Positions 9,839 through 23,122 of a DNA stretch of 33,556 bases are shown here, one piece after another. Every line of letters starts with the position of its first letter. Position 1 is the stretch's first letter. The translations under genes were made by a program, and so were the position numbers. This DNA comes from a virus. Below the pieces are notes generated by a model. The model was given only the letters and a program-made list of their open reading frames with translations, made no database searches and was not told the origin of the DNA. The stretch is taken from the IMG/VR virus record IMGVR_UViG_3300032157_000374, positions 1 through 33,556 of that record; one strand, given 5' to 3'.

Positions 9839-10354
9839 TCAGCCTCCGATGTTTGCTCGCATCGCTGCCAGGCGGTCGACGCCGCCAACGCGATAGATGT
9901 TGTTCAGCACGTCGATGCAGTATTGCTCCACGCCGCCGATGCTCACCTGCACCAACGTGCACGCGATCTCATCGTCGAACTCGCCGGACTCTTGCGGCTT
10001 GAAGGTTGCACCGCCCGCCTTCTTCCAGCGACCCATCAGGAGGGCCACCAGCGGAACTTCCGCAATGCGGCCCAGCTGATTGTGAGTCTCGACGTTCGCA
10101 CGCACTTGGAAGCGGCGGGCGGTGAACGGATCGGCGCTGGCTGCCAGCACGTCGGGGTAGAAGCCGTTCCACTTGGCCGTCAGCACGAGCGGACCGAGCC
10201 CGCCTGGCAACTCGAGCGTGCCGAACATACCGACGCCCTTGTGCTCCTGCATCGCTGGCGCGATGTCAGGCAGCTTCATCTCGGAGAACTTGCCGAGCAG
10301 GCTGTTCGTGCCGTCGAGGTAGCAGTTGGCGTGAAAGACCTTGCTGACTTGCAT
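9839..10354 (-). CDS. FII: Major tail tube protein (P2 FII family)
   Basis: A 171-residue tube protein. The N-terminus (SKVFHANCYLDGTNSLLGKFSEMKLPDIAP, here quoted as NCYLDG, LLGKFSEMKLPDI) and the middle GGLGPLVLTAKWNGF...FTARRFQVRANVE match the P2 FII tube family. The C-terminus runs EIACTLVQVSIGGVEQYCIDVLNNIYRVGGVDRLA in consecutive strands and helix. It polymerises into the inner tube around the tape measure. It lies right after the sheath gene with a gap of 47 bases, and just before the chaperone gene, the standard order. Confidence 0.93.
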   Translation of the reverse strand: MQVSKVFHANCYLDGTNSLLGKFSEMKLPDIAPAMQEHKGVGMFGTLELPGGLGPLVLTAKWNGFYPDVLAASADPFTARRFQVRANVETHNQLGRIAEVPLVALLMGRWKKAGGATFKPQESGEFDDEIACTLVQVSIGGVEQYCIDVLNNIYRVGGVDRLAAMRANIGG

Positions 10355-10393
10355 TGCGGTGCCTTGGTTAGAGAGTGGCTTTCAGGGACGGGC

Positions 10394-10404
10394 GGAACGG
10401 TTCA
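10394..10404. promoter_or_regulatory. GGAACGGTTCA dyad between sheath and tube genes
   Basis: A dyad GAAC-G-GTTC that overlaps the sheath stop codon and opens the 47-base gap before the tube gene. The same 13 bases, GGAACGGTTCACG, recur at 28407-28419 inside the holin-like gene. It resembles the GAACTGTTC sites at 4647, 16771 and 25006 but has G at the centre. It is a possible weaker member of the same site family. Confidence 0.25.
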
Positions 10405-11862
10405 CGCTGCTGCTGGCAGCAGCGACCGCAAGAGCGACGTATCGACGACGCTTTCGAAGGTGATGCCCTCGAGCGGCGGCGAGCCGACGAACACGAGCGT
10501 GAAGGTCAGCTTGCCCAGCGCGATCTGATCGGCAGGGTTCTTGGCCGCCTGGAATTCGACGCGAGAACCAGCCGGGACCGCGCCGCGTCCGATCAGCACG
10601 CCCATGTAGTTGTTCGCCGCCTGGAGGATGTCCTCGATCAGCGGCGACGTGATGGGCAGATCGATCGCAGGCAGCATCGCGAGCTCGAGGCTTTCGTGGA
10701 TCTGGTCCGCGATGCGCCGCTGCGTGATGAAGCTCTTCACGCCGGGCGTGGCAGGGAAGGCCGAGCTCCGGTTGCCCCAGACGCGATAGCCCGTGCCGAA
10801 GGCGTTGAACACCGTCGTGATGCCCACCTCGTTCAAGAGCGAGACGTCGCACGTCTTGTCGTTGAGCGCGGCGGTGATCGGGTACTCCAGCCCGGCGATG
10901 ACGCGGCTCTGCTTGTTGCTCGGGCTGACCCAGAAGCCCATGGTGCTGTCCGTGAAGGCGAGCACACCAGCGTAGATGCTCGAGAGCGCCGCAAGGCCCA
11001 GCTCGCCCGTGGTGCGGTCGAGCGCCTTGACGTGTGGCACGCAGAGCACGCAGCGGTCGTCGCTCACGTTGAAGTTGATCGTGCCGGCTGGGCCGCGACC
11101 CTCGATCGCTTCCTCGACGGTGGTCCCCACGGGAGCGTCGACGGCCACGATCGCACGCAGGCGATCCCAAGCAGCCAGCGCCCGAAGCGCGTTGACCACC
11201 GTGAGCTGCGTAGAGTACGCGGGCGCAAGCAGGATCTTCGGGTGAAAGCCGCGCTTGGTGAAGCTGTTCCGAAGGGCCTGTGCACCAGTGCGCTCGCCCG
11301 CTTCGTTCACAGTGCCGATCACATCGACAGCAACCACGGCCGACGGGTCGCCGAACACGTAGGTGACGTTCGCCTCCTCGTCTCCGTCGAGCGCTCCGCC
11401 CGGCAGGACGGTGATGACGCCTTCGGCCATGTCGACGGAGTAGTCCGTGCCCGCGACGAGGGCTGCGCCGGCGCCACCAGCGACCTTGACCACCACCGAG
11501 ATCAGACCCTTGTCGGCCAGCACGATCTCGCCGTCCTCGATCGCGAGGTCGGCCGCCGCGAAGTCGTCCGTGTGCTCCGCCGGATCGAACACGTTCACGA
11601 CCACAACCCACTTCGCGCCCTCTTGGCGCAGGCGCTCCAGCTCGGCGGGGATCGTGTAGCCGGGCAGCACGGGACCGAACCGGCGCACGTCGTCCACGTC
11701 GGACAGACAAAGCACGTCCTCGTTCACGGTGCGCTGCTCGGCTGCGACCAGGTGCACCGGCGCAGTGCCGATCAGGCCGACCACGGACGACTTCACGCCC
11801 TGGACGACCACGCCAGCCTGATTGACTTCGATGGTCTCGACCCCGTGGAGGAAAGTAGTCAC
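10402..11862 (-). CDS. FI: Contractile tail sheath protein
   Basis: A 486-residue sheath protein of the P2 FI/Mu gpL type. The start FLHGVETIEVNQAGVVVQGVKSSVVGLIGTAP is distinctive (segments IEVNQAGVVVQGVKSSVVG). The C-terminal conserved domain is also visible: FVSPS-like WVSPSNKQSRVI, then VFNAFGTGYRVWGNRSSAFP, LPITSPLIEDILQAANNY and a final FTLVFVGSPPLEGITFES. The sheath contracts to drive the tube into the cell. The GTG start at 11862 overlaps the upstream gene's stop as GTGA. The length is in the normal range for the family. Confidence 0.95.
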   Translation of the reverse strand: MTTFLHGVETIEVNQAGVVVQGVKSSVVGLIGTAPVHLVAAEQRTVNEDVLCLSDVDDVRRFGPVLPGYTIPAELERLRQEGAKWVVVVNVFDPAEHTDDFAAADLAIEDGEIVLADKGLISVVVKVAGGAGAALVAGTDYSVDMAEGVITVLPGGALDGDEEANVTYVFGDPSAVVAVDVIGTVNEAGERTGAQALRNSFTKRGFHPKILLAPAYSTQLTVVNALRALAAWDRLRAIVAVDAPVGTTVEEAIEGRGPAGTINFNVSDDRCVLCVPHVKALDRTTGELGLAALSSIYAGVLAFTDSTMGFWVSPSNKQSRVIAGLEYPITAALNDKTCDVSLLNEVGITTVFNAFGTGYRVWGNRSSAFPATPGVKSFITQRRIADQIHESLELAMLPAIDLPITSPLIEDILQAANNYMGVLIGRGAVPAGSRVEFQAAKNPADQIALGKLTFTLVFVGSPPLEGITFESVVDTSLLRSLLPAAA

Positions 11863-12173
11863 GATCCTGCTCCTTCATCGGCCCCAGTCGGGGCGTCGTT
11901 GCTGTTTCCGTTCCCGCCCTCGCTCGAGGTGGTGGTGACCTTCGGCGCCTTGGGCGCCCTGCTCCGGCTGGCCCGCCGCGTCGGTGCTGCCTGCTGCTGA
12001 GGGGCCTCGCCTGCGACCTCGGCCAGGAGCCCGCGCGCGACCAGGCGCTCGACGTAGGGGTTCTCACTCGGCAGCGTCACGCGCTTGCCGGGGTGCAGCA
12101 TCACCTGCCGCGCGTCCTTGCCGCTGAAGGTCACGCCGCTCGGCGGTCCGGAGTAGAGGTACGTCTTGTCCAA
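11859..12173 (-). CDS. Small phage protein before sheath (Mu gp38 position)
   Basis: A 104-residue protein. The N-terminal 55 residues form a compact domain (TYLYSGPPSGVTFSGKDARQVML, broken here as YLYSGPPSGVTF and ARQVMLHPGKRVTLP, then NPYVERLVARGLL). It resembles small proteins just upstream of sheath genes in Mu-like phages, which often have the pattern PGxxVxLP...YxxRLxxxGxL. The C-terminal half is low-complexity Ala/Pro/Arg/Ser-rich and likely disordered. The start is a TTG at 12173 with AAGGA seven bases upstream. The function is unknown; a role in joining the tail terminator to the sheath is only a positional guess. Confidence 0.65.
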   Translation of the reverse strand: MDKTYLYSGPPSGVTFSGKDARQVMLHPGKRVTLPSENPYVERLVARGLLAEVAGEAPQQQAAPTRRASRSRAPKAPKVTTTSSEGGNGNSNDAPTGADEGAGS

Positions 12174-12185
12174 GGTGCTTTCCTT

Positions 12186-12707
12186 TCAGGCGCCGGGATC
12201 CGTCCCGACGGATGTGTCTCCGCTCACTTCGTCCTCGAGCAGAGCGAACTTCAGCGGCGGCGCTGGGCCACCAAAGGGACCGGGGTCAGGCTCGCTCACC
12301 GGCACGATCGGGAGCTGCACACCCAGCACGACGTCGTAGCGCCAGATCCCGTTCTCGGTGCCGCCGAAGCCATCGCTCACCCAGAAGATGGGGCTGCCGC
12401 GGTCCAGTCGCTTTGCGAGGACGCACTGCTCGATCATGTCGACGAGCTCGAGGGAGCCCTTCGGGCCGTTGAGCTTGCGCGTCAGCAGCGTGAGATCGAA
12501 GTGCGCGACCCCATCCTGCACGCCGCCAGGGTTCGGCTGACTCGCCTTCGGGATGCCATGGTAGCCGACCCACACGGCAGCGGCCGGGTGCTTGAAGAGC
12601 TCGTAGCTCGGCTTGTCCGGCATGCGCTCGACCGCTGCCCGATTGGCCTCCGTGATCGGAGCGAGCAGGGCGATGAGGCTCGCCACCATCTCCTCGCGCC
12701 AGCTCAT
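12186..12707 (-). CDS. Mu gp37-like protein (DUF1834-type)
   Basis: A 173-residue protein matching the gp37 family of Mu-like phages. It opens with two N-terminal helices, then shows the strand PAAAVWVGYHG, followed by AHFDLTLLTRKLNGPKGSLELVDMIEQCVLA, a G-rich FWVSDGFGGTENGIWRYDVVLGVQLPIV segment and an acidic, Pro-rich tail. In Mu this gene sits between gp36 and the sheath, and the family is thought to act as a tail terminator or connector component. The ATG at 12707 overlaps the stop of the upstream gene by four bases. A 12-base gap leads to the TTG start of the next gene. Confidence 0.75.
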   Translation of the reverse strand: MSWREEMVASLIALLAPITEANRAAVERMPDKPSYELFKHPAAAVWVGYHGIPKASQPNPGGVQDGVAHFDLTLLTRKLNGPKGSLELVDMIEQCVLAKRLDRGSPIFWVSDGFGGTENGIWRYDVVLGVQLPIVPVSEPDPGPFGGPAPPLKFALLEDEVSGDTSVGTDPGA

Positions 12708-13219
12708 GGGCGCACCTCGAGATGGTCACGCAGGGTCTGCAGGATCGTCTGCTCATCCTGGGCATTGATCCCCAAGTAGGGACGCGCGGGGATCGTCACT
12801 TTGCGCCCGGGTCCTGCTTGCCCGCCGAGCTGATGAATGCGGGCGTAGATCCGATTCGCGCCCACACGGAGCTCGGCGCCGTTGACGGCCGACCCGATCG
12901 AGTCGAACAGGTGCATGCGGTCGCGCAAGATCTCGTTGCCGGTGCCACGGCGCCGGAACTGTCCCTTGCGGTTGCGGGTGCCCTTTCCTGCCCGAGCGCT
13001 GGCGCCACCGCGAAGCGCAGTGGTCACGGGTGAGTGCTCCTCCCACTTGTTGCCATCCGGACCTCGCTCGTCGAGGAATCGCTGCTGCGTGCTCGCCTCG
13101 AGCGCGCTGCCGATCGAGCGCAGCGCCGGACCCACGTCGCCCGTGCGCAGCGCAATGCGGCGCAGGAGGCGCTCGGCCCCCTCGATCTTCTGCGCCTCGA
13201 CGTTGACCTGCACGGTCAT
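12704..13219 (-). CDS. G: Virion morphogenesis protein (Mu gpG/P2 gpS family)
   Basis: A 171-residue protein. ALRSIGSALEASTQQRFLDERGPDG, then NKWEEHSPVT, GNEILRDRMHLFDSIG and the C-terminal YARIHQLGG...TIPARPYLGI are the consecutive signatures of the phage virion morphogenesis/tail completion family (PF05069; P2 gpS, Mu gpG). These proteins help complete or attach the tail. The central Arg/Gly/Lys-rich stretch (residues about 72-92) may be a flexible insert. In Mu, gpG precedes the protease; here it follows the gp36 gene, so the order is changed. It is bounded on both sides by ATGA overlaps. Confidence 0.88.
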   Translation of the reverse strand: MTVQVNVEAQKIEGAERLLRRIALRTGDVGPALRSIGSALEASTQQRFLDERGPDGNKWEEHSPVTTALRGGASARAGKGTRNRKGQFRRRGTGNEILRDRMHLFDSIGSAVNGAELRVGANRIYARIHQLGGQAGPGRKVTIPARPYLGINAQDEQTILQTLRDHLEVRP

Positions 13220-13617
13220 TCGGGCGCCACCAGCTTTCCGAACTCCGTCATCGACCCTTCGTCGAACAGGGCCTCCGGCTGCTCAGCGTCCGCAATGACG
13301 CCCCGATCGCCTGCCCCATTCGCTAGGGCGTCGAGGTACTTGACCGAAGACTCGTAACGCTTGGCATAGGACTCGAATTCCGTGCCGGGCCGACCGCCCA
13401 CCAGGCGGTACATGGCGAGGTGAAACTGGTGAGCCTGGAGCACGTGCGTGGGCGGCGGGCTGGCGAGCTGATACGTGTAGCCCTCCACCTCCGACCACGC
13501 GTCCTCGAGCGCGCGCCGGCACACCACATCATCGACGACTGCGCCGTTCTGATGATCGGTGAGCTGGGCGAGCACCCCTTCGGGCGCGCGGTCTTTGAAG
13601 GCGGTGAGGGTGAGCAT
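13216..13617 (-). CDS. Mu gp36-like head-tail connector (DUF1320)
   Basis: A 133-residue protein with the all-helical pattern of the DUF1320/Mu gp36 family: TLTAFKDRAPEGVLAQLTD, VVCRRALEDAWSEVEGYTYQL, VLQAHQFHLAMYRLVGGR and YAKRYESSVKYLDALANG. Such proteins act as head-completion adaptors between portal and tail. The last 25 residues are acidic. It follows the gp35-like gene with a 6-base gap and overlaps the morphogenesis gene by four bases. Confidence 0.85.
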   Translation of the reverse strand: MLTLTAFKDRAPEGVLAQLTDHQNGAVVDDVVCRRALEDAWSEVEGYTYQLASPPPTHVLQAHQFHLAMYRLVGGRPGTEFESYAKRYESSVKYLDALANGAGDRGVIADAEQPEALFDEGSMTEFGKLVAPE

Positions 13618-13623
13618 GTGGGC

Positions 13624-14031
13624 TCAGCGGCGCGGGCGTTGCGATGCTTTCTTGGACGACTTCTTTGAGGGGCGGGCTGGCTGGCTGCGACGGGGAGGCG
13701 TCACTGCCGCCGGAGGCGGAGGCGGAGCAACGGCCTCGCCTTGCTCGGTCGCCGCGAACGGGGGGGACGTTGCTTCGGGAGCAACGGCGCCTTCGGTCCG
13801 CGGCGGGTGCCGGCGACCTTCCTGCGCGGGACCGCGCCGGGGCCGTGGAGCTCGAGGCGGCCGCTCCTCGTCATCCGGGGCCGACCACGCCTTGAGCTCG
13901 GCGGCCTCGGGCAGGCGCACCGAGCCCTTGGCCAGCTTCGCCTGGGCTGACTCCTTGGTCAGCCCAAGCTGGGCCCCGGGCTGGCGCAGCTTTCCGCGCC
14001 AGCGAATCGGAGAGACGGCGATGACCTTCAT
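13624..14031 (-). CDS. Small head-region protein with Pro/Arg/Lys-rich tail (gp35-like position)
   Basis: A 135-residue protein. Only the first 45 residues look folded: MKVIAVSPIRWRGKLRQPGA, then LTKESAQAKLAKGSVRLPE, which resembles the small DNA- or capsid-associated N-terminal domain found in gp35-like proteins of Mu-type phages. The rest is low-complexity Pro/Ala/Arg/Lys with a very basic end (KKSSKKASQRPRR). I chose the ATG at 14031, two bases after the major capsid stop; the open frame that continues to 14265 is antisense-like noise within the capsid gene. A basic tail could bind DNA or the capsid interior (inference). Confidence 0.65.
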   Translation of the reverse strand: MKVIAVSPIRWRGKLRQPGAQLGLTKESAQAKLAKGSVRLPEAAELKAWSAPDDEERPPRAPRPRRGPAQEGRRHPPRTEGAVAPEATSPPFAATEQGEAVAPPPPPAAVTPPRRSQPARPSKKSSKKASQRPRR

Positions 14032-14033
14032 GA

Positions 14034-14984
14034 TCAGGCCGCTTCGCCGACGACGTTCTCGAGGAAGTAGCCGCCGTAGGGGGCGACGATGAGGGGCTTG
14101 ACCGACTCGCCCACGCGGACGATCTCGCCGCCGCGCAGGCCGACGTTCTTGTCCGGGATCGAGCCGCTGACGATCTGGCCGTACTGAGCGGTGAGCCCGA
14201 ACGTCACGCCGCCCTGCGTGCTGGCGGTGCGGTCGCGGTGGATGATCGCGATGTGAGGGCCCCACACCTCGGCCATGACGGCCGCTTCGCCCGGCTTGGC
14301 GGTGTTGAGCCAGCCCTCACCGACGAGCACCTCTTGCAAGCCGAACAGGCTCGCCACCTGCGCCTGCGTGGCGAGGCCCGAGTCGCCGCTGTTGCCCTGC
14401 ACCGCCTTGACGACGCCCGGCAGCTTGCGGAACACCGACCACGCCTTGCGCCCGAACACCGCGATATTGCCGCGGAGCAGCATCGCCGTGATCGCATCGT
14501 CGATGAGTGCCAGCGGGTTGCCCGCGTAGTCCTCGTGATCCAGGCGCTCCTCGCCCTCGAGCTCCTCCTTCTGCGCCGTGGGGTACTGGGCCGCCGCGAA
14601 CACGAGCGACGCCACCTTGAGCTCATGGCGCAATTGGATGATCGACGTCGCCAACCCCGTCGCGCCTTCTCGCGCGCCCTTGCGCTTCAGGTCGTATGCC
14701 GAAAGCGGGATGTCGATCGCCTCGTCCTCGGTGGAGGCCGTAGCGTCTTCCATTTGCAGCTCGAGGCGATTGACCTTGCCGCGTGGCCCCACCGCCGTCT
14801 GGGGCAGCGTCACTGCTTGGTGGATGTCCTTGGCCTTGCTGTAGCTGAACAGCGTTTCCGAGAGCGACGCGTCGCGCGGCAGAACGCTGTCCGCGATGAG
14901 CACCTTGTCGGGGTTCTTGTACGCAACGGCGATCGCCGTCAGATGGGGGTCGACTGGGAAGTCACCGTTGGGATCGTTGGCCAT
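14034..14984 (-). CDS. Major capsid protein (Mu gpT-type position)
   Basis: A 316-residue protein read as the major head subunit because of its position after the protease/scaffold and small head protein, its length, and its content. Motifs include HLTAIAVAYKNPDKVLIADSVLP and FSYSKAKDIHQAVTLPQTAVG. These are followed by a helix RHELKVASLVFAA, the ITAMLLRGNIAVFGRKAWSVFR block and VLVGEGWLNTAKPGEAA...WGPHIAIIHRD. These blocks are characteristic of one of the HK97-fold capsid families of Siphophage- and Mu-like phages. The C-terminus (PYGGYFLENVVGEAA) completes a beta segment. A 48-base gap separates its start from the tRNA upstream in the transcript. Confidence 0.82.
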   Translation of the reverse strand: MANDPNGDFPVDPHLTAIAVAYKNPDKVLIADSVLPRDASLSETLFSYSKAKDIHQAVTLPQTAVGPRGKVNRLELQMEDATASTEDEAIDIPLSAYDLKRKGAREGATGLATSIIQLRHELKVASLVFAAAQYPTAQKEELEGEERLDHEDYAGNPLALIDDAITAMLLRGNIAVFGRKAWSVFRKLPGVVKAVQGNSGDSGLATQAQVASLFGLQEVLVGEGWLNTAKPGEAAVMAEVWGPHIAIIHRDRTASTQGGVTFGLTAQYGQIVSGSIPDKNVGLRGGEIVRVGESVKPLIVAPYGGYFLENVVGEAA

Positions 14985-15032
14985 GGGTTCTCTCGGTTCG
15001 CTTTCAGGACTTGGGGGAAACGTTGTTGTGTG

Positions 15033-15104
15033 TTGCGCGGGCTGGATTCGAACCAGCGACCTCCGGGGAATGAACCCGTTGAGCTACCGCTGCTCCACCG
15101 CGCG
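15033..15104 (-). tRNA. Initiator-type tRNA-Met (anticodon CAT)
   Basis: On the minus strand a 72-nt cloverleaf folds. Acceptor CGCGCGG pairs with CCGCGCA, leaving a C1-A72 mismatch. The D stem is GAGC/GCTC with loop AGCGGTA. The anticodon stem is ACGGG/CCCGG with loop TTCATTC (CAT), the variable loop is AGGTC, and the T arm is GCTGG-TTCGAAT-CCAGC, followed by A73. The C1-A72 mismatch, three G-C pairs next to the anticodon loop and A11-T24 are the classic bacterial initiator features. CCA is not encoded. T37 and the short D loop are unusual. It lies 8 bases after the upstream gene's stop, on the same strand as the capsid operon. Confidence 0.88.
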
Positions 15105-15112
15105 GCAGTGGG

Positions 15113-15499
15113 CTACTCGCCCGGCTCACCTTGCGGGCCCGGCATGCCAGGTCCGCCCTTGAGGATTGATCCGATGGTGCCGAGCACGCCCGACTCCCAC
15201 GCGATCCCGTGGACCTCGTCGCCGGCAGTCGCGAGAACCCCGCGCCCGCTGGCGTCAGAGGTCAGTCGCTGGCCTCGCGTGACGTTGCCGCCGTACTCGC
15301 ACGGGAAGATGCCGATCACGCCCACGTCGTCACGGTCACCCGCGGAGCGCTTGCGACGACTGATTGCGGCCGGCAAGTCTGCCGCGCTCGTCGCGAGAGC
15401 CATCTCACCGTCGGCGGAAGCGAACTTCAGGAGGCGGTTGGCCTCTACGTTCGTGGTGATCTTGGCGGTCTGTTCCAGTACGGGAAAGAGCTGACTCAT
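15113..15499 (-). CDS. Small head protein, probable capsid decoration protein
   Basis: A 128-residue protein between the protease/scaffold and the major capsid gene, the slot of decoration proteins in many Mu-like phages. The sequence has an N-terminal helix, then EANRLLKFASADGEMALAT, GDRDDVGVIGIFPCEYGGNV, RGQRLTSDASGRGVLAT and GDEVHGIAWESG, a mainly beta pattern like the DUF2190-type decoration proteins. The last 12 residues, GMPGPQGEPGE, form short collagen-like Gly-X-Y triplets. The ATG at 15499 overlaps the protease stop by four bases. The stop TAG lies only 8 bases before the tRNA. Confidence 0.65.
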   Translation of the reverse strand: MSQLFPVLEQTAKITTNVEANRLLKFASADGEMALATSAADLPAAISRRKRSAGDRDDVGVIGIFPCEYGGNVTRGQRLTSDASGRGVLATAGDEVHGIAWESGVLGTIGSILKGGPGMPGPQGEPGE

Positions 15500-16728
15500 A
15501 GTTGGTTTGCCTCTCGAAGTTCCGTGGCCGCTTGGGCCGTGCTGATGAACCGACCGTCCTTCTCGGCGGTCTGCTGATGGGTACGGATGCGTGCGGCGCG
15601 TTCGTCGACGCTCAGGCGTCCGGGCGATTCGGCGAAGTCGGTGGGCGCGAGCTCGGCGAACTCCACTTCCTTGGGCGCAATGCCGAGGATGGCTTCCTTG
15701 AAGAAGTCGATCGTGGTGCGCTCGTCGCCCTCACCAAACGAGATCACGCTCTCGTCGGTCACGCCGTCGAGGCGGTGCAGGAACGCCACGAACTGCTCCC
15801 TCGAGCACGGCAGCGGGCGACCGGTGCGGACGAGCGCTTCGGCAAAGGACAGGTGCCCTGCCTCGCGCCGCTGGAACTCCTCGAGCGCCAGCTTGGCCTC
15901 GCGCTCCTGGAGCTTCCGCTCGCGCTCCGTCAGATCAGCCTCGCGCCGCGTGACCGCTTCGCTCTGCGGCGGGTCTGCGGCAGCTTCCGCGGGCGCCTCG
16001 GTGGCGGCCGCTGGTGGTGCGGCAGCTTCAGGAGCGGCCACTGCAGGGGCGCTGGCTTCGCCTTCGGCGACGCCGGCCACACCAGGCGCATCCGTCTGAG
16101 CACTGCTGTCAGCAGTCTCAGCAAACGCCGCCACGGGTTCTTTGAGTGCCTCTTGCAGTTCATCGATCCACCAGGACGGCAGCGCCTTGTCGGCCTTCTC
16201 TTGGCCGAACTCCGCGATCAGGAAGTCGCGAAGCCCACGCAGCGCACGCGCGAGCGCGCGCATGTTCGTGTAGTCGGAGAACTCGATCGTCACCGCCTCA
16301 GCCTCGTCGGCTTCATCGGCGAAGCAGGCCACGTCCCTCAGCCCCTTCATCGCCGGAGGGACAGCGCCGAGGAATCCGACGTGGCGCAGGTGATAGGCCC
16401 CGGGCTTTGGGTTGCCGGGCGCATCGGGGGCGTAGAAAGAGCTCGAGCGCTTCTTGAGCTTCCCGCTCGTCACGGCTTCGGCGAAGTCGGCGTCTACCTG
16501 ATCGCACTCCGCGAGCAGGCGCTGCTGTTCCGCGTCGAACGTGAGGCCCTTGACCCAACCGTAGGCGGGCGCGTTCAGCTTCGGGTGCCCCACCACTAGC
16601 GGGGCCTCGTGCACCTTCGGGTCGTAGCTGTCAGCAACGGCTTGGAGGTGAGCAGCCGTCAGCTCGTAGTCCCTGCCATTCATTGCGCGGTGCCGGCCGG
16701 GGCGAGCGATCTCGATGAGCTCGGGCAT
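15496..16728 (-). CDS. I: Head protease/scaffold (Mu gpI-like)
   Basis: A 410-residue protein. The N-terminal third is the Mu-type prohead protease: IARPGRHRAMNGRDYELTAAHL, then HEAPLVVGHPKLNAPAYGWVKGL, KLKKRSSSFYAPDAPG and YHLRHVGFLGAVPPAMKG in succession. The SSS stretch and the GHP/HLRHVGFLG histidines are candidate catalytic residues. After an Ala/Pro-rich linker (residues about 205-255) comes a coiled-coil scaffold (RREADLTERERKLQEREAKLA), giving a fused protease-scaffold. It is the first gene of the minus late operon, with an intergenic palindrome at 16771-16781 about 43 bases ahead. In Mu the scaffold is a shorter in-frame product of the same gene; an internal start was not assigned here. 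Confidence 0.88.
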   Translation of the reverse strand: MPELIEIARPGRHRAMNGRDYELTAAHLQAVADSYDPKVHEAPLVVGHPKLNAPAYGWVKGLTFDAEQQRLLAECDQVDADFAEAVTSGKLKKRSSSFYAPDAPGNPKPGAYHLRHVGFLGAVPPAMKGLRDVACFADEADEAEAVTIEFSDYTNMRALARALRGLRDFLIAEFGQEKADKALPSWWIDELQEALKEPVAAFAETADSSAQTDAPGVAGVAEGEASAPAVAAPEAAAPPAAATEAPAEAAADPPQSEAVTRREADLTERERKLQEREAKLALEEFQRREAGHLSFAEALVRTGRPLPCSREQFVAFLHRLDGVTDESVISFGEGDERTTIDFFKEAILGIAPKEVEFAELAPTDFAESPGRLSVDERAARIRTHQQTAEKDGRFISTAQAATELREANQL

Positions 16729-16770
16729 GTGTGCTGACCGAATCGCACGCCATAACGGTCGAGGCTGGCC

Positions 16771-16781
16771 GGAACTGTTCC
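16771..16781. promoter_or_regulatory. GGAACTGTTCC palindrome upstream of the late minus operon
   Basis: A perfect 11-bp dyad in the 70-base gap between the divergent protease (-) and lipoprotein (+) genes. The core GAACTGTTC also occurs right after the Mor gene and in the gpV/gpW gap. The likely role is a regulator site for the late minus-strand promoter, and possibly for the lipoprotein. No clear -35/-10 pair was assigned on the minus strand; on the plus side TGCTACCAT at 16784-16792 could be an extended -10. Confidence 0.45.
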
Positions 16782-16798
16782 TCTGCTACCATTGGCCC

Positions 16799-17242
16799 AT
16801 GCGTGAGCGGATGATGGCGGGTTTGTTGGGGCTGATTCTTGTGGTCGGGTGCAGTGCGCCCAAGGTCGACGAGCGGTGGACCTTGCAGCAAACCGCCAAG
16901 GCGGGCGAGCTCGAGCCGTGGCCGTTCACCGTCGACGAGGTCACCCTCGAGTGCGGCGGCGTCGACAAGGCCCCGCTGCGCGAGGGCCCTGCTCTATTCT
17001 CTGTCGTGACGGCGGCGGGGCGGACCTACGTCCTCAACGCAGGGGCGGACGCGATGGCCAAGACGATGGGCTGGTTCCCCAAGGTCGAGACGATCTGGAA
17101 GCTTGACCCTGCCGTGCCCGGCGCGCGGGTGGACATCCTGCCGGCGAAGCTCCGCGCCTTGACCCCTTGCGAGCAGGCCGTCCACCAGCTCACGGGCAAG
17201 CGGACGGAGCATGGTCGGGCGGTCGGCCCCCGAGCAGACTGA
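16799..17242 (+). CDS. DUF2511-type lipoprotein (YebY-like)
   Basis: A 147-residue protein with a signal peptide MRERMMAGLLGLILVV ending in the lipobox VVGC (Cys at about residue 18), so it should be exported and lipidated. The mature part WPFTVDEVTLECGG, then YVLNAGADA, IWKLDPAVPGARVDILPAKLRALTPCEQ carries the DUF2511/YebY pattern, with two cysteines likely to form a disulfide. The family is common in phages and bacteria; its function is unknown. It sits alone between the late operon and the immunity region and is transcribed against the repressor gene, a typical moron place. Start choice: ATG 16799 has no Shine-Dalgarno; ATG 16811 also gives a valid signal peptide. Confidence 0.78.
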   Translation: MRERMMAGLLGLILVVGCSAPKVDERWTLQQTAKAGELEPWPFTVDEVTLECGGVDKAPLREGPALFSVVTAAGRTYVLNAGADAMAKTMGWFPKVETIWKLDPAVPGARVDILPAKLRALTPCEQAVHQLTGKRTEHGRAVGPRAD

Positions 17243-17322
17243 CTGACGCCGTCAGCGGCCCCGCCAGCGGCCGACTCGGGCTCCTGGGCATAGGCACCCG
17301 CCGGACCTATCCGATAGGCCCT
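17243..17322. other. Convergent gap between lipoprotein and repressor
   Basis: This 80-base gap contains the palindrome CTGACGCCGTCAG (17243-17255) directly after the lipoprotein stop, a direct repeat AGCGGCC and the left composite operator (17290-17318). No T-tract follows any hairpin, so I see no intrinsic terminator for the two convergent genes. Confidence 0.5.
17290..17318 (+). promoter_or_regulatory. Operator-like site, left copy
   Basis: ATAGG (17290-17294), then an 11-base spacer, then the palindrome CCTATCCGATAGG (17306-17318). The same composite site, with the same half-sites, spacing and orientation, lies 586 bp to the right in front of the repressor gene. This copy sits 4 bases beyond the 3' end of the repressor gene. 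It may be a second operator for looping, or may control transcription entering the convergent gap. Confidence 0.6.
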
Positions 17323-17862
17323 CTACGGGCGACGTCGACGGATTGCCAGCACCCCCGCCGATCCGGCATGGCTGGCGACCGCAACTCGCGCGAGCTCCTC
17401 CCAGTTGTCCGGTGGCACGTTCCCAGGGGCGACGGCCTCGAGCACCCCCGCCATCACTGCCGCAAACTCTTCGTTTGTCAGCACGCCGGAGTAGGCAGCC
17501 GAGAGCCCGACCGCTACCTCCCTCTGTATTGCTCCCAGGCGGTCCGCGGTGAGCGACGCCCCAGCGAGGACGGCGGCTCGGGCGCCGTTGCCCGCCGCCG
17601 CATCGCTGAGCCGCCGAAGTGCAGGCGAAGGCCGCTCGGGCCCCTTGCCCGTGATGAGCCAGTCGAGGCTGTACCCGGACGCCTGCGCCAGCCTGGCGAG
17701 GACATCCGAGGGCGGCCGACTGTGGCCTGAGAGGTACTTCCGAAACTGCCGATCCCCCACGGCGGCAACTTCGGCTGCTTTTTCCTGAGTCCCGATGGCC
17801 TGAGCCACGCGCACGAGGCGCTCGGCCCAGTCGGGACGCTTTTTCTTTGGAGGTGGGGCCAC
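17323..17862 (-). CDS. Phage repressor, cI-like HTH (Mu Repc role)
   Basis: A 179-residue protein. The N-terminal part (ERLVRVAQAIGTQEKAAEVAAV, then RQFRKYLSGHSRPPSDVLARLAQASG and LDWLITGKGP) is a cI/Cro-type helix-turn-helix ending in a classic DWLxTGxG motif. The C-terminal half is Ala-rich and helical and shows no Ser-Lys S24 peptidase motif, so LexA-like self-cleavage is not supported. It is transcribed against the early operon and starts with GTG at 17862, with no good Shine-Dalgarno seen. Operator-like repeats lie on both sides. It most likely represses ner/transposase transcription and maintains lysogeny. Confidence 0.82.
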   Translation of the reverse strand: MAPPPKKKRPDWAERLVRVAQAIGTQEKAAEVAAVGDRQFRKYLSGHSRPPSDVLARLAQASGYSLDWLITGKGPERPSPALRRLSDAAAGNGARAAVLAGASLTADRLGAIQREVAVGLSAAYSGVLTNEEFAAVMAGVLEAVAPGNVPPDNWEELARVAVASHAGSAGVLAIRRRRP

Positions 17863-17869
17863 AAATAAC

Positions 17870-17899
17870 TTGCCAATAGGAACCGAGGGGGCCTATTCG
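17870..17899 (+). promoter_or_regulatory. Candidate early promoter driving ner and transposase
   Basis: TTGCCA at 17870-17875 can serve as -35, followed 17-18 bases later by CTATTC/TATTCG (17893-17899) as -10. The -10 lies inside the operator palindrome at 17892-17904, and the -35 lies beside the ATAGG half-site. A repressor bound there would block the polymerase. The match to the sigma-70 consensus is only fair. Confidence 0.5.
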
Positions 17900-17904
17900 A
17901 TAGG
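17876..17904 (+). promoter_or_regulatory. Operator-like site, right copy
   Basis: ATAGG (17876-17880), an 11-base spacer, and CCTATTCGATAGG (17892-17904) lie in the 49-base gap between the divergent repressor and ner genes. The arrangement is identical to the left copy at 17290-17318. This is the expected position for the main operator controlling both the repressor and the early promoter. Confidence 0.72.
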
Positions 17905-17911
17905 TCTCTAG

Positions 17912-18181
17912 ATGACCTTGGTCAGACATGACGGTAGCCGAAGGCGGCGGGGACTGCACCCTGAACAAATTAAAGCGATGGTGAGAATGCGCGGGCTCAC
18001 GCTGGTCGGCCTCGGCCGACAGCATGGCTACAGCGACTCCGCCATGAAGCAGGCGCTTCGCGACTGCTGTGGGCCGTGCGAGCGAATCATCGCGGCTGCC
18101 ATCGGCCTACCGCCCGAGCAGATCTGGCCCGATCGCTACAGGCAAAAGCGGCCGCGTCGTCGCGGAGGGCCGCGCTCGTGA
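17912..18181 (+). CDS. ner: Ner-like DNA-binding regulator
   Basis: An 89-residue Ner/Nlp-family protein. The core HPEQIKAMVRMRGLTLVGLGRQHGYSD (parts: IKAMVRMRGLTL, LGRQHGYS), then AMKQALRDCCGPCERIIAAAIG and LPPEQIWPDRY, aligns with Mu Ner, including the final xxPxxIWPxRY. Mu Ner turns down the early and repressor promoters after transposition starts. The C-terminus is a basic Arg-rich tail. The ATG at 17912 is seven bases after the operator. The stop shares one base with the transposase start (TGATG). Confidence 0.88.
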   Translation: MTLVRHDGSRRRRGLHPEQIKAMVRMRGLTLVGLGRQHGYSDSAMKQALRDCCGPCERIIAAAIGLPPEQIWPDRYRQKRPRRRGGPRS

Positions 18182-19914
18182 TGCCATCGACAACCGAGCT
18201 CGAGGGGCGTGCCCTGGGTGGGCAGCTCGCCGAGACGTGGCAGGCCGCACGGCCGGCCGCACAAGCCCGAGCACTCACACGAACCCGCGCCCTCTTGCGA
18301 GTGCAGGAGCTCCGCGCGCAGGGCTCACTCTGGGAGGCTGCCTACAGGCAAGCGGCGGCCGACTACGGGGTCTCTCGCGCTGCGCTCTGCCGCTGGCAGC
18401 GGCGAGTGAACGGTGCCGAGCAGGCGGACTGGCCGGCGCTCTTGCTGTCGAATCACACGGGCCGCGAGCACCTGCGCCTGAACGTCCACGATGCTGCGTG
18501 GGATTCGTTTCTCGCCGACTACCTGCGCCCGAGTCGTCCGGGCTTCGCTGCTTGCTTTCGGCGCCTTGTCGAGCGAGCGAAGCGCGAAGGGTGGGGCCAG
18601 CTCCCGAACCTGAAGACACTGCAACGTCGCGTGCGACGCGAGGTGCCGGCCAGCACCGTGCTCCTCCGACGCGAGGGTGAGCGCGCACTCGAGCAGTGCC
18701 TGCCCGCGCAGCGGCGCGACAAGTCCGCGCTGCGCGCGCTCGAGCACGTCAACGCGGACGGCCATCGCCTCGACGTGTTCGTGCGTTGGCCGTGTCACCC
18801 GGGGCACAAGCCGCGCATCGGTCGCCCGATCCTCGTCGCCTGGCAGGACATCTACTCCGGGAAGATCCTGAGCTGGCGCCTCGACGAGACGGAAAACTCC
18901 GATTCGGTCCGCCTCGCCTTTGCGGAGATGCTCCGCGTCTACGGGATCCCGCTCGCCGCCACCGTCGACAACGGCCACGCCTTCGCATCGAAACGCATGA
19001 CCGGCGGCGTGCTCGGCCGCCATCGCTTCAAGTTCCAAGCCGAGGAGCCCGAGGGCATCTACAAAGCCTTCGGCGTCGACGTGCGCTTCGCCCTGCCGTA
19101 CCACGGGCAGAGCAAACCGATCGAGCGTGCGTTTCGCGACTTGTGCGAGGACATCGCTCGATCGCCAGCGTGCGCGGGTGCGTACACAGGCAACGCGCCG
19201 CACGCGAAGCCGGCCGACTACGGATCGCGCGCTGTCGACTACGAGCACTTCGTTGCCATCGTCGACGCCGGGATCCGCGAGCACAACGCGCGCTCGGGAC
19301 GACGGAGCCCAGTCGCTGCGGGGCGGAGCTTCGATCAGGTGTTCGACGAGAGCATGGCGGACGAGCTCACGATCGTGCGCCGAGCGACGGAGGCACAGAT
19401 CCGCTGGCTGCTCCTGCCCATCGAAGGCGTGAAGGTCAGCAAGGACGAGGCCGTGCTCACGTTGCTCGGCAATCGGTTCTGGCACCCTGAGCTCCTGCAG
19501 CGCCGCGGGCGCAGGCTCAACGTGCGCTTCGATCCCTACGACCTGCGCGCAGGCGTGTGGGTGTTCGACGGCGGCACCGATCCGATCTGCTTCGCGGAGT
19601 GTATTGCCGCCGTAGGCTTCACGGACACGGACGCCGCGCGCCGCGACATGCGCCAGCGCCGCGCGCTGGTGAAGGCCGAGAAGGAAGCGGCCGCCGCCTT
19701 CGGCACCGTGCCCGTACACCAGCTCGCGCACCCTGCTCGCACCAAGCAGAGCACCACGCGCGTGGTGCGTGCAGAGTTTGGCCGCCGCACGCCGGAGGCC
19801 GTCGTCGCTGAGTCCGAGAAGCGCCAGCAGCAAGCCGCTTCAGAGGATCTGCTGCTCGTACTGGGCAGCGCAGCGAAGCAAGAGCTCGACCGCTCCCGTG
19901 GAGGGGCGGCCTGA
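18181..19914 (+). CDS. A: DDE transposase A (MuA-like)
   Basis: About 577 residues. The catalytic DDE triad is visible from the Mu motifs: D193 in NADGHRLDVFV, D263 in ATVDNGHAF and E315 in KPIERAF. Between them are ILVAWQDIYSGKILSWRLDETENSDSVRLAF (cut here: WQDIYSGKILSWRLDE, NSDSVRLAF) and the GAYTGNAPHAKPADYGSRAVD segment, close to MuA. The N-terminal HTH and DNA-binding domain is shorter than in MuA. A Mu-type beta-barrel region (about residues 400-490) follows the core. The ATG at 18181 overlaps the ner stop; the 35-residue longer frame lies inside ner and is rejected. The enzyme nicks phage ends and performs replicative transposition. Confidence 0.93.
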   Translation: MPSTTELEGRALGGQLAETWQAARPAAQARALTRTRALLRVQELRAQGSLWEAAYRQAAADYGVSRAALCRWQRRVNGAEQADWPALLLSNHTGREHLRLNVHDAAWDSFLADYLRPSRPGFAACFRRLVERAKREGWGQLPNLKTLQRRVRREVPASTVLLRREGERALEQCLPAQRRDKSALRALEHVNADGHRLDVFVRWPCHPGHKPRIGRPILVAWQDIYSGKILSWRLDETENSDSVRLAFAEMLRVYGIPLAATVDNGHAFASKRMTGGVLGRHRFKFQAEEPEGIYKAFGVDVRFALPYHGQSKPIERAFRDLCEDIARSPACAGAYTGNAPHAKPADYGSRAVDYEHFVAIVDAGIREHNARSGRRSPVAAGRSFDQVFDESMADELTIVRRATEAQIRWLLLPIEGVKVSKDEAVLTLLGNRFWHPELLQRRGRRLNVRFDPYDLRAGVWVFDGGTDPICFAECIAAVGFTDTDAARRDMRQRRALVKAEKEAAAAFGTVPVHQLAHPARTKQSTTRVVRAEFGRRTPEAVVAESEKRQQQAASEDLLLVLGSAAKQELDRSRGGAA

Positions 19915-19922
19915 AAGAAGGT

Positions 19923-19951
19923 GAGGCCGGGCGCTTGTAACACCCGGCCTC
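19923..19951 (+). other. Perfect 9-bp hairpin between transposase A and B
   Basis: GAGGCCGGG (19923-19931), an 11-base loop and CCCGGCCTC (19943-19951) form a strong stem-loop in the 65-base A-B gap. No T-tract follows, so it is not a typical intrinsic terminator. It could stabilise the mRNA end, pause polymerase or adjust the A:B ratio. The ATG of B is 28 bases beyond it, with GGAAGGA as ribosome binding site. Confidence 0.7.
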
Positions 19952-19979
19952 GCGTCAAACACGGAAGGAATGACCAGAC

Positions 19980-20921
19980 ATGAGTAACACGAACGAAAGC
20001 AAAGTGACCAACCCGCTGTCCGGCGACGTGCTGCGCCGCGCGGTGACGCGAGCGATGGCGCACCTGGGGATCAGCCGCGCCCGCCTCGCGGAACTGCTGG
20101 CCTACGCGCGACCGACGATCAGCGGCTACTTGAACGATCGCTACGACGGCGACGCCGAAAAAGTCGAAGCCGCCCTCAACGCTTGGCTGGCGAGCATCGA
20201 CCCCAAGGCATGGTCCACCGACCACGGCGACTTCGTCGAGACACCGAGCGCCGAGAAGATCCTGAGCGTGCTGTCCTACACGCAAGTGCAGCAGGACATG
20301 TCGCTCATCTACGGCGGCCCCGGCGTCGGTAAGACGACGGCGATCCGCCAGTACATGACCGCGTACCCGGAGCGCTGCTGGCTCGCCACCATGACGCCGA
20401 GCTCGGCCGGGCTCGTGAGCGCGCTCGAGTGCGTGGCCGTGGCGCTGGGCCTCGGCACGCCGAACGGTGGCGCGCGGCGGATCTCCAACGTGATCCGCGA
20501 GCATATCGCGGACGGCGGCGGCATGATCATCATCGACGAGGCGCAGCACCTCTCGATGGCGGCCGTCGAGGAGCTGCGCTCGATCCACGATTCGACTGGG
20601 TGCGGGCTCGCGCTCGTCGGAAACGAGACGAGCTATGCGCGGCTGACGGGCGGTGCACGTTCGGCCCACTACGCGCAGATCTTCTCGCGCATCGGGGCCC
20701 GCCTCTCGATCGGTCGCCCTTCCGAGCTCGACGTCAAAGCCATCTGCGACGAGTGGAAGGTGACCGACGCGAAGGCGCGGGACTTCCTCCGCAAGCTCGC
20801 GATGCAGCCGGGCGCGCTGCGCTCGGTCGTCAAGGCGCTGCGTATTCTCAAGCGCAGCAACTCCGCCGTGAACGTCGACTCCCTGCGCCAGGCGTGCGGG
20901 ATCTTGGGAGCGGAGGTCTGA
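19980..20921 (+). CDS. B: Transposition ATPase B (MuB-like)
   Basis: A 313-residue AAA+ ATPase. An N-terminal HTH (residues about 15-60: ISRARLAELLAYARPTISGYL) is followed by Walker A GGPGVGKTT (112-120), Walker B MIIIDEAQH (182-190) and the sensor-type motif LALVGNETSY. The C-terminal winged segment is RDFLRKLAMQPGALRSVVKAL. MuB-like proteins form ATP-dependent filaments on target DNA, capture targets and activate the A transposase. The C-terminal domain matches the MuB/TniB/TnsC type. It follows A after a hairpin and is followed by a 105-residue gene with a 3-base gap. Confidence 0.95.
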   Translation: MSNTNESKVTNPLSGDVLRRAVTRAMAHLGISRARLAELLAYARPTISGYLNDRYDGDAEKVEAALNAWLASIDPKAWSTDHGDFVETPSAEKILSVLSYTQVQQDMSLIYGGPGVGKTTAIRQYMTAYPERCWLATMTPSSAGLVSALECVAVALGLGTPNGGARRISNVIREHIADGGGMIIIDEAQHLSMAAVEELRSIHDSTGCGLALVGNETSYARLTGGARSAHYAQIFSRIGARLSIGRPSELDVKAICDEWKVTDAKARDFLRKLAMQPGALRSVVKALRILKRSNSAVNVDSLRQACGILGAEV

Positions 20922-20924
20922 GCC

Positions 20925-21242
20925 ATGTCGGACAAGACAACCGAACAGCTCATTGCCGAGGCACAGGCTGCGCTCGCTGCGCAGTCGCCCGATGACGTGC
21001 AGGCCTTCGTGGCGATCCTCGTCGGTGAGGCGTTTCACACGAACGTGCACATGCTGCGCCCCCCCCAAGCGGCGCTCGACGGTCGCAAGATCACCTGCTG
21101 CGAAACGGCAGCGATGGCTCGCGAGTTCCTTGCGGGCAAGCGCTCTCTCTCGCCGTTCGACGTCGTCGCGCTCTGCGCCCTTGTGATCAGCGCACACCCG
21201 CAACATGGCCCCGGACAGAAGGCGGTGCGCCATGACGCGTGA
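20925..21242 (+). CDS. Small early protein, function unknown
   Basis: A 105-residue protein. The N-terminal half is helical (SDKTTEQLIAEAQAALAAQ, DDVQAFVAILVGEAF). The second half has GRKITCCETAAMAREFLAGKRSLSPFDVVALCAL. I do not recognise a named family. It follows transposase B with a 3-base gap, and its 3' end overlaps the next gene by 11 bases. A run of eight C bases at 21059-21066 inside the gene would be a potential slippage point. The place after B is where Mu carries small accessory early genes. Confidence 0.6.
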   Translation: MSDKTTEQLIAEAQAALAAQSPDDVQAFVAILVGEAFHTNVHMLRPPQAALDGRKITCCETAAMAREFLAGKRSLSPFDVVALCALVISAHPQHGPGQKAVRHDA

Positions 21243-21472
21243 CAGGCGCAAGCTGCCTCCGCGGACGCTGCCGAGGGAAGCCCATGTGCGCCCCCCGGCC
21301 ATGCCGCCGAAGCTGCAGCTCATCCCGGCGGACGAGCTGCCGAGCCTGACGGACCTCCGCGCGGTGCACCAGGAGATCGACTTCCTGCTCACGTGCGGAC
21401 TCGATCGCGACGAGCTCGCGCGCGAGGACGCCCCGATCCCGTTTGCTCTCACCGAGAAGGCGGTGCGCCATG
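21217..21472 (+). repeat. 18-bp direct repeat spanning two start codons
   Basis: The bases AGAAGGCGGTGCGCCATG occur at 21217-21234 and 21455-21472. Each copy ends with the ATG of a gene (21232 and 21470) and contains its ribosome binding site (AGAAGG). The repeat brackets the 81-residue gene, so the junctions may have arisen by duplication or cassette insertion. Confidence 0.85.
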
Positions 21473-21477
21473 GCTGA
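21232..21477 (+). CDS. Small early protein, function unknown
   Basis: An 81-residue protein bracketed by two copies of an 18-bp repeat. The N-terminus is basic (MTRDRRKLPPRTLPREAH). It is followed by a Pro-rich MPPKLQLIPADELPSLTDLRAVHQ and a helical end (FLLTCGLDRDELAREDAP). There is no recognised family. I chose the ATG at 21232, preceded by the AGAAGG repeat, over the longer open frame. It overlaps the upstream gene by 11 bases and the DUF3164 gene by 8. Confidence 0.6.
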   Translation: MTRDRRKLPPRTLPREAHVRPPAMPPKLQLIPADELPSLTDLRAVHQEIDFLLTCGLDRDELAREDAPIPFALTEKAVRHG

Positions 21478-22084
21478 CCTCACGATGCGAGTGGACGCCA
21501 AGGGGCGCCACGTGCCGGAGCATCTGATCAAGCCCGTCGACTTGGCGCGCGACGATCTGGTGCGGCGGCTGGTCGCTCAGGCGCTCGACCAGCGTGAGAC
21601 GCTTCGCCAGTTCAAGGCGTTTGCCGAAGGCGAGCTCGATGCCTTCCTTTCGCTGTCGGCCGAGCAGTACGAAGTCCAGCTCGGCGGCGCCAAGGGCAAC
21701 GTCAGCCTACTCAGCTACGACGGCCTGCTGAAGATCACGCGGCAGATCCAAGATCGAATCAGCTTCGATGAACGGCTGCAGGCCGCCAAGAAGCTCATCG
21801 ACGAGTGCGTGCTCGAGTGGGCCAAGGGCAGCGCGGGTGAGATCCAGATCCTCGTGCAGCACGCCTTCCAGGTCGACAAGGAGGGGCAGATCAACGCCGA
21901 GCGCGTGCTCTCGCTTCGCCGCCTCGAGATCGCTGACGAGCGCTGGCAGCGAGCCATGCGTGCCTTGACCGACTCGATCCAAGTCGACTCGACCAAGGCC
22001 TACCTGCGCTTTTACGAGCGCGCACACACGGAAGCCCCTTGGCAACCGATCTCGCTCGACCTTGCTGCACTGGAGGCGCCATGA
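21470..22084 (+). CDS. DUF3164 family early protein
   Basis: A 204-residue protein. The N-terminus (MRVDAKGRHVPEHLIKPVDLARDDLV) and the blocks FAEGELDAFLSLSAEQYEVQLGG, then NVSLLSYDGLLKI, AKKLIDECVLEWAKGS and RWQRAMRALTDSIQV are the pattern of DUF3164. That family is common in the early regions of Mu-like phages and is sometimes annotated as a sulfate-transport-related protein without evidence. The function is unknown. The ATG at 21470 follows the repeated AGAAGG site. The 3' end overlaps the next gene as ATGA. Confidence 0.85.
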   Translation: MADLTMRVDAKGRHVPEHLIKPVDLARDDLVRRLVAQALDQRETLRQFKAFAEGELDAFLSLSAEQYEVQLGGAKGNVSLLSYDGLLKITRQIQDRISFDERLQAAKKLIDECVLEWAKGSAGEIQILVQHAFQVDKEGQINAERVLSLRRLEIADERWQRAMRALTDSIQVDSTKAYLRFYERAHTEAPWQPISLDLAALEAP

Positions 22085-22305
22085 ATGCACTCCACACGGA
22101 CAGCGATGGGCACGCGCTCTGCGTGCCCGCGCTCGAGCGGGAGAACGCTCCCGAGTCGATGAGCATGCTCAAGGCGGTGGCGGCGCAGCTCGAACGCCTT
22201 GGCGGCGAGATGCTGGTTGCTCTCGACGACGGCGACCAGGAAGCGGCGCAGGCGGCATGGGATTCTGTGCGCGCACTGGTCGCCGAGTTCGGAGGTGAGC
22301 GATGA
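22081..22305 (+). CDS. Small early protein, function unknown
   Basis: A 74-residue protein starting at the ATG that overlaps the DUF3164 stop (ATGA). It has an acidic and Ala-rich helical C-terminus (LKAVAAQLERLGGEMLVALDD). Its stop overlaps the next gene's start (ATGA). No family is recognised. A coiled-coil-like helix between residues 30 and 70 is the only visible structure. Coupled start and stop suggest it is translated as part of the early polycistron. Confidence 0.6.
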   Translation: MNALHTDSDGHALCVPALERENAPESMSMLKAVAAQLERLGGEMLVALDDGDQEAAQAAWDSVRALVAEFGGER

Positions 22306-22631
22306 TCGAGCACCCTCCGACGTTGGACAAGGACCAGCTCGAGGTGCTTTCGGCGGGCCATCGTGCCGCCGCCTTGCACCAGCTGGTTCACGGCGGCGAC
22401 GCCTACAATCGCGAGCTCGCGGCCGCGTGCCGTAAGCTCGCAACCAGCATCGAGCTCGACCAGAACGGCGAGCGAGCTGGGCACTGGGTCACGGAGGACG
22501 TAACCGCGGTGCTCCTGCTTGCACTCGGCAGGCTCGATCGTGAGGCGCTTCGCCGCCACACGCGCGCGCTGAACAAGCAGCTCGCCCCCGTCGTTCAGGC
22601 GCTCGCGCCGAAGGGAGGCGACCATGGCTAA
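22302..22631 (+). CDS. Small early helical protein, function unknown
   Basis: A 109-residue protein, mainly helical: LDKDQLEVLSAGHRAAALHQLV, ELAAACRKLATSIELDQN, and TEDVTAVLLLALGRLDREALR. No family is recognised. The ATG overlaps the upstream stop as ATGA, and the end overlaps the next gene by 8 bases. It has no signal peptide; it is probably cytoplasmic. Its position in the early run suggests an accessory or host-takeover role, without proof. Confidence 0.6.
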   Translation: MIEHPPTLDKDQLEVLSAGHRAAALHQLVHGGDAYNRELAAACRKLATSIELDQNGERAGHWVTEDVTAVLLLALGRLDREALRRHTRALNKQLAPVVQALAPKGGDHG

Positions 22632-22878
22632 CCTCACGTGGACCGAACGCATGACGCTGCAACGCATCGGACGGGAAGGCGGCGTCGTCGCCTATTCGAC
22701 CGAGGAGATCGCCGTGCTCGAGGCGCTCAAGGCCAAGGGGTTCGTCCGCCAGCCTTGGGAGTGTTGGTACCTGACCGACAAGGCCAGGCTGCTCCTCGCT
22801 CGGGAGCACACGCGCGAGATCTTGAGGGGCGTTGGGGCGTTCTTCAGGGGCGTCCGGAAAGGGTTGGTGCGCCGATGA
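22624..22878 (+). CDS. Small winged-helix-like protein
   Basis: An 84-residue protein. The pattern TWTERMTLQRIGREGGVVAYSTEEIAVLEALKAKGFVRQPW (segments TLQRIGREGG, EEIAVLEALKAKGFV, WYLTDKARLLL) looks like a winged-helix DNA-binding fold: two helices, a turn and a beta wing ending in WYLTDKA. It may be an early regulator. The last 22 residues are basic. Overlaps with both neighbours support the start at 22624. Confidence 0.55.
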   Translation: MANLTWTERMTLQRIGREGGVVAYSTEEIAVLEALKAKGFVRQPWECWYLTDKARLLLAREHTREILRGVGAFFRGVRKGLVRR

Positions 22879-23120: not shown

Positions 23121-23122
23121 CC

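Follow-up and report, generated by a model that had tools for sequence, protein, structure and literature searches.

An initiator-type tRNA with an altered anticodon loop lies between the cement and capsid genes of a Mu-like transposable phage

The head operon of a Mu/B3-like transposable myovirus carries, between the genes of its cement and capsid proteins, a tRNA with intact initiator determinants and an anticodon loop that differs from that of the bacterial groups examined at the two bases following the anticodon. This tRNA is very probably a functional initiator, and the explanation that best accounts for the evidence, with a probability of about one half, is that it is a working phage initiator whose loop was changed to survive an anticodon-loop nuclease; taken by itself, the proposal that the U37-C38 loop lets the initiator escape such an enzyme is tentative and stands slightly below even odds. 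Initiators with U37 are a recurrent trait in unrelated phages, and in one family of gut phages U37 is strictly kept, suggesting a working replacement part.

The window, meaning the whole 33,556-nt stretch of viral DNA that was analysed (IMG/VR record IMGVR_UViG_3300032157_000374), encodes identifiable transposase A, MuB, terminase, portal, MuF, protease, capsid and tail sheath proteins, and the presence of a Mu-type transposase, MuB and a Mu-type head module places the virus among the transposable (Mu-like) phages. The relevant features are as follows.

18076..19914, + strand, Mu-type transposase A (phrog_310, E 3e-125), which marks the phage as transposable
19980..20921, + strand, MuB-like transposition protein (phrog_296, E 6.2e-65)
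15496..16728, - strand, head maturation protease, 410 aa (phrog_976, E 7.4e-96)
15113..15499, - strand, cement/decoration protein, 128 aa (PF09956 Phage_cement_2, 26.2 bits, cut-off 24; phrog_673)
15033..15104, - strand, initiator-type tRNA(CAU), tRNA positions 1-73 (ARAGORN; RF00005, 54.1 bits; parsed features)
15068..15074, - strand, anticodon loop UUCAUUC (anticodon at 15070-15072, U37 at 15069, C38 at 15068)
14985..15032, - strand, tRNA-capsid spacer of 48 nt, read from the sequence, with a GAGAG Shine-Dalgarno-like run
14034..14984, - strand, major capsid protein, 316 aa (phrog_1005, E 1.6e-63; 42-44% identity to the phage B3 group)

PHROG 673, to which the 128-aa cement protein was also assigned, bears the label scaffold. 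The head operon of Pseudomonas phage B3 (Beetrevirus) has the same order of protease, small protein and capsid genes as the window, with capsid proteins 42% identical, but B3 has 11 nt and no tRNA before its capsid gene, whereas the same gap in the window measures 128 nt and includes the tRNA. Within 15496-19914 the window changes direction, from a head/tail operon encoded on the - strand to a transposase-to-MuF part encoded on the + strand, while the B3 order runs in a single direction; the strand junction is also seen in a second assembly, an identical 13.6-kb IMG/VR contig that spans window positions 9894-23506. A 31-bp direct repeat (97% identical, 1067-1097 and 1217-1247) was the sole repeat in the self-comparison of the window.

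ARAGORN detected a single tRNA in the window, a tRNA-Met(CAT) at 15032-15104 (- strand), and Rfam a single RNA, the full RF00005 model at 15033-15104 (- strand), scoring 54.1 bits (gathering cut-off, 29 bits) with an E-value of 3.9e-9 for the window, which rules out a chance cloverleaf. Both programs thus bear out the complete cloverleaf with CAT anticodon reported in a preliminary description of this DNA, which had proposed ARAGORN and covariance scoring as checks. In the acceptor arm (CGCGCGG/CCGCGCA), C1 and A72 (15104 and 15034) are unpaired and positions 2:71 to 7:66 are paired; the D arm (GAGC-AGCGGTA-GCTC) contains A11:U24, the purine:pyrimidine pair expected of initiators, and in the anticodon arm (ACGGG-UUCAUUC-CCCGG) G29:C41, G30:C40 and G31:C39 all pair. 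The mature molecule is completed by TG after the 5' acceptor strand, A after the D arm, AGGTC after the anticodon arm, the stem and loop GCTGG-TTCGAAT-CCAGC, and the discriminator A73; CCA is not encoded, CAC being the sequence that comes next. An intact fold with CAU, no Watson-Crick pair at 1:72, three G:C pairs and A11:U24 are therefore present together, and the initiator hallmarks listed earlier (C1-A72, three G-C pairs and A11-T24) can all be read from the sequence. The single blemish in the stems is small, a mismatch between A27 and G43. The 7-nt D loop, which had been singled out as unusual, is ordinary and common among relatives.

The tRNA begins at 15104, 8 nt past the end of the cement gene (15113), and 48 nt separate A73 from the first base of the capsid start codon (14984); the cement gene, the tRNA and the capsid gene are all on the - strand. 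These coordinates and the PF09956 match agree with the earlier placement of the tRNA 8 bases after a decoration gene on the late-operon strand. No promoter-like or terminator-like site was found on the - strand between the cement gene, the tRNA and the capsid gene, and the 48-nt spacer would form the leader of the capsid mRNA once the tRNA is excised. When 80 IMG/VR capsid relatives were examined, the single tRNA at this place was that of the window itself, represented by an identical contig, and the 79 others had none, which indicates a recent insertion special to the window lineage; as a singleton, the tRNA does not allow selection to be measured within that lineage. The gap between the cement and capsid genes of the closest relative (L502, positions 2880-2997) holds a hairpin of -46.6 kcal/mol (z -4.75) at the place of the window's tRNA, and that of L503 (2861-2999) a weaker one (z -1.45); no notable structure was found in this gap in the relatives L501 and L511, so that hairpins do not constitute a general rule of the gap.

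Few bacterial RNAs are as conserved as the initiator tRNA, and a purine nearly always occupies tRNA position 37. The usual bacterial initiator loop, CUCAUAA with A37-A38, is not part of the definition of an initiator, and the window tRNA has UUCAUUC at this place. In a scan of 60 Bacteroidales and 61 Bacillota genomes with an initiator pattern that left positions 37 and 38 free, 112 of 115 initiator matches were A37-A38, and to this extent the oddity ascribed to T37 in the preliminary description stood. Of the three exceptions, all of the phage type, a single Prevotella genome contributed two and a Clostridium prophage the third; both genomes had entered the sample because of their U37 phage or prophage copies. 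Genomes with a U37 copy usually also have a separate A37 initiator. U37 initiators with no clear A37 host copy were seen in three Dehalococcoidia single-cell assemblies (L221, L228 and L262) and in one small Firmicutes MAG (L225), and these may be either phage or host copies. Compared with bacterial tRNA-fMet of the E. coli type, the window tRNA shares the CAU anticodon, C1xA72, A11:U24, the three G:C pairs and A73, but the loop has U32, U37 and C38 where the E. coli type has C32, A37 and A38; it further differs in A26, in A27.G43, in the lack of an encoded CCA and in its location within a phage capsid operon. When E. coli tRNA-fMet is free, its A37 joins the G29:C41 pair in a base triple and Cm32 is the partner of A38; the determinants of formylation are 1:72 and A11:U24 (PMC4611024).

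Phage initiator-type tRNAs are already known, and the U37 version appears to be undescribed in the literature searched, in which no paper on U37 initiators or their head-operon location was found (few subscription journals were covered). A search of IMG/VR with a T37 pattern that fixes the GGG stem and U24 and leaves 1:72 free matched 58 contigs, many IMG/VR contigs being near-copies of one another, and at least 52 of the matches were confirmed by ARAGORN as initiator-type tRNAs. Among the viral and genome loci listed, 1:72 was unpaired in 40 of the 45 unique U37 sequences and G:C in none, and A38 was kept in 19 of the 45. When position 37 was left free, the 80 matches listed comprised 69 with A37, 6 with U37 and 5 with G37; the totals of the A37 and C/G/T37 scans are to be read as "at least". 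G37 initiators (L284-L326, at least 25 unique sequences, often with U32) also recur in phages as a second change at this position, and CCA was encoded in 6 of 45 unique U37 initiators vs 45 of 103 A37 initiators among the matches listed. Many of the neighbours tested around U37 initiators are terminase, protease, capsid, head closure and sheath genes, though replication, methylase and unknown genes occur there as well. Stenotrophomonas phage vB_Sm_QDWS359, Janthinobacterium phage Donnerlittchen, Pseudomonas phage PaMx74 and Streptococcus phage Javan59 each carry a single initiator-type tRNA by their terminase genes, with A37 where the window has U37, whereas the initiator of Ruegeria phage RpAliso has U37 as in the window but lies inside a tRNA array.

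A close parallel to the window was observed in Bacteroidota transposable phages, a family in the hankyphage/Winoviridae neighbourhood by capsid similarity, which also combine a Mu-type transposase with a U37-C38 initiator in the head operon. To avoid a bias from the tRNA pattern, the family was picked by its capsid protein, which belongs to another PHROG than the window capsid. The tRNA was present at 59 of 80 loci, at a fixed place 1.05-1.23 kb ahead of the capsid gene, being the first element of the operon, before the protease gene, and not placed between the cement and capsid genes as in the window; the corresponding region of the cultivated Winoviridae phage Peternella_1 lacks a tRNA. A Mu-type transposase was detected in 7 of 10 records tested, the other three being short contigs. 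On the capsid tree, presence of the tRNA amounts to one change, and every one of the 38 distinct rows beyond it has a tRNA; given the weak support of this branch (61/59), a single origin is allowed, not proven. Position 1:72 is unpaired in all 31 unique tRNAs of the family, as CA, CT, UC or CC, and changed at least 10 times on the tree, never to a pair, while the stems elsewhere were kept through compensatory changes. The pairs 2:71 to 4:69, A11:U24 and G30:C40 as well as U37 are invariant among these 31 sequences. The pair 29:41, conversely, is A:U in about half of the family tRNAs, having changed at least 6 times on the tree, vs 1 of 50 Bacteroidales host copies (Fisher test, p about 5e-7, a descriptive value that ignores relatedness); such a relaxation fits the loss of A37, since in E. 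coli tRNA-fMet it is A37 that contacts G29:C41. Altogether, a 1:72 position that never pairs, covarying stems and an invariant U37 argue that the family tRNA is a selected, working initiator and not debris.

That the window tRNA is a stray or decaying copy acquired by chance, or an attachment site that has been used, is highly improbable. It is a singleton in its lineage, it has the A27.G43 mismatch, and B3 manages with just 11 nt in the same gap; the first two of these observations also count against the best explanation. The determinants are, however, all intact, the loop is unlike that of bacterial initiators and matches initiators of other phages, the same class of tRNA is under clear selection in the Bacteroidota family, and an attachment site sits poorly with a Mu-type transposase and a tRNA inside an operon, so both a decay product and an attachment site were set aside as unlikely. 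The tRNA could also serve mainly as a processing site, at which RNase P and 3' trimming would give the capsid mRNA its own 5' end and stability. In favour of this role, the tRNA fills the gap between cement and capsid genes exactly and leaves a 48-nt leader equipped with a ribosome site, and the corresponding gap holds a hairpin of high stability in L502 and a weaker one in L503. The unstructured gaps of L501 and L511 speak against it, and processing would not require an unpaired 1:72, A11:U24 or CAU, all of which the Bacteroidota family conserves with the tRNA at the head of the operon and not directly before the capsid gene; this role is thus considered quite unlikely. A supply of additional initiator when late initiation becomes limiting, with a loop that is neutral or tunes P-site entry and with no nuclease involved, is unlikely as well, although it agrees with the intact determinants, with the location of such tRNAs inside the late or packaging operons of several lineages, and with the A37 carried by 69 of the 80 phage initiators listed with position 37 free, indicating that supply alone may be useful. 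In E. coli, loss of initiator is partly relieved by extra initiator genes (PMC8522696). What such a supply leaves unexplained is the presence of U37 in several phage lineages, and its invariance in 38 family lineages, while the bacteria tested keep A37; sustaining late initiation, one of the roles suggested in the preliminary description, is possible, but alone it gives no reason for position 37 to change and then freeze.

A specialised mode of decoding, in which U37 pairs with an A at -1 and the initiator reads AAUG, favouring phage start sites, is very unlikely. Under this scheme the tRNA would be a second, phage-specific initiator whose base 37 extends or alters the P-site contact so that ribosomes prefer late phage messages, and the start contexts of the Bacteroidota transposable phages would have shifted to match, a proposition that is equally improbable. 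Pairing of initiator base 37 with position -1 was reported by Esposito et al. (2003), as cited in PMC9841429. In the Bacteroidota family A stands at -1 in 43% of 197 starts in tRNA-bearing phages vs 26% of 84 starts in those without the tRNA, after removal of overlapping genes and ambiguous starts and with gene starts outside annotated records set by a simple longest-ORF rule; the corresponding distinct contexts are 25 of 26 vs 1 of 13 for the small terminase and 20 of 22 vs 9 of 14 for the capsid gene. However, a single gain separates the two groups, which reduces the comparison to one evolutionary event, the large terminase and two small gene families show the opposite direction, the window phage has mostly C before its start codons, that of the capsid gene included, and the Clostridium U37 prophages have no shift at -1. 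The ALTERNATIVES reading (U37 pairing with the A before AUG) is therefore unsupported in the window phage, and contradicted by it and by the Clostridium prophages. In the same Bacteroidota phages (L420-L499), A at -3 is found in 27% of starts with the tRNA vs 62% without it.

According to the preferred explanation, a functional initiator with a nuclease-resistant loop, the tRNA would be transcribed within the late head operon, excised by host tRNA-processing enzymes and provided with CCA. The host MetRS would charge it through the CAU anticodon, and it would be formylated owing to the preserved unpaired 1:72 and A11:U24. The formylated tRNA would then enter the ribosomal P site and start phage proteins and, with A37-A38 altered to U37-C38, would sustain late protein synthesis after an anticodon-loop nuclease (e.g., VapC) had destroyed the host initiator. 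The cut made by enteric VapC was mapped in initiator tRNA between A38 and C39 (PMC4105405), and U37-C38 places the difference from bacterial initiators at this very site. As the phage loop differs at the VapC cut and U37 is both recurrent and under selection, replacement of a host tRNA inactivated by defence, the other role put forward in the preliminary description, is a real candidate. Escape from VapC, PrrC and colicins was previously proposed for phage tRNAs whose anticodon loops are changed close to the site of cleavage (van den Berg et al., 2023; PMC10264068); as in the window, their loops differ from those of the host beside the cut, but they are elongators, whereas the window tRNA is an initiator, for which escape is only a candidate reading. 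On the other side, 19 of the 45 unique U37 tRNAs keep A38, meaning that not all change both bases at the VapC cut, and U37 never varies among the Bacteroidota phages of the family, while mere escape might allow any change. To our knowledge, no nuclease that cuts initiators has been found in the hosts concerned.

The freezing of U37 in a family in which 1:72 moves between mismatches offers a direct test of the role of base 37 in initiators. The U37 initiators of phages likewise test whether an initiator of their own serves phages as a means of overcoming enzymes that cleave initiator tRNA, and they run against the published statement that tRNA-fMet is generally avoided by phages infecting VapC-bearing Shigella (PMC10264068). 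The loop variant in the window would be a form of initiator possibly resistant to host tRNA-cutting defences.
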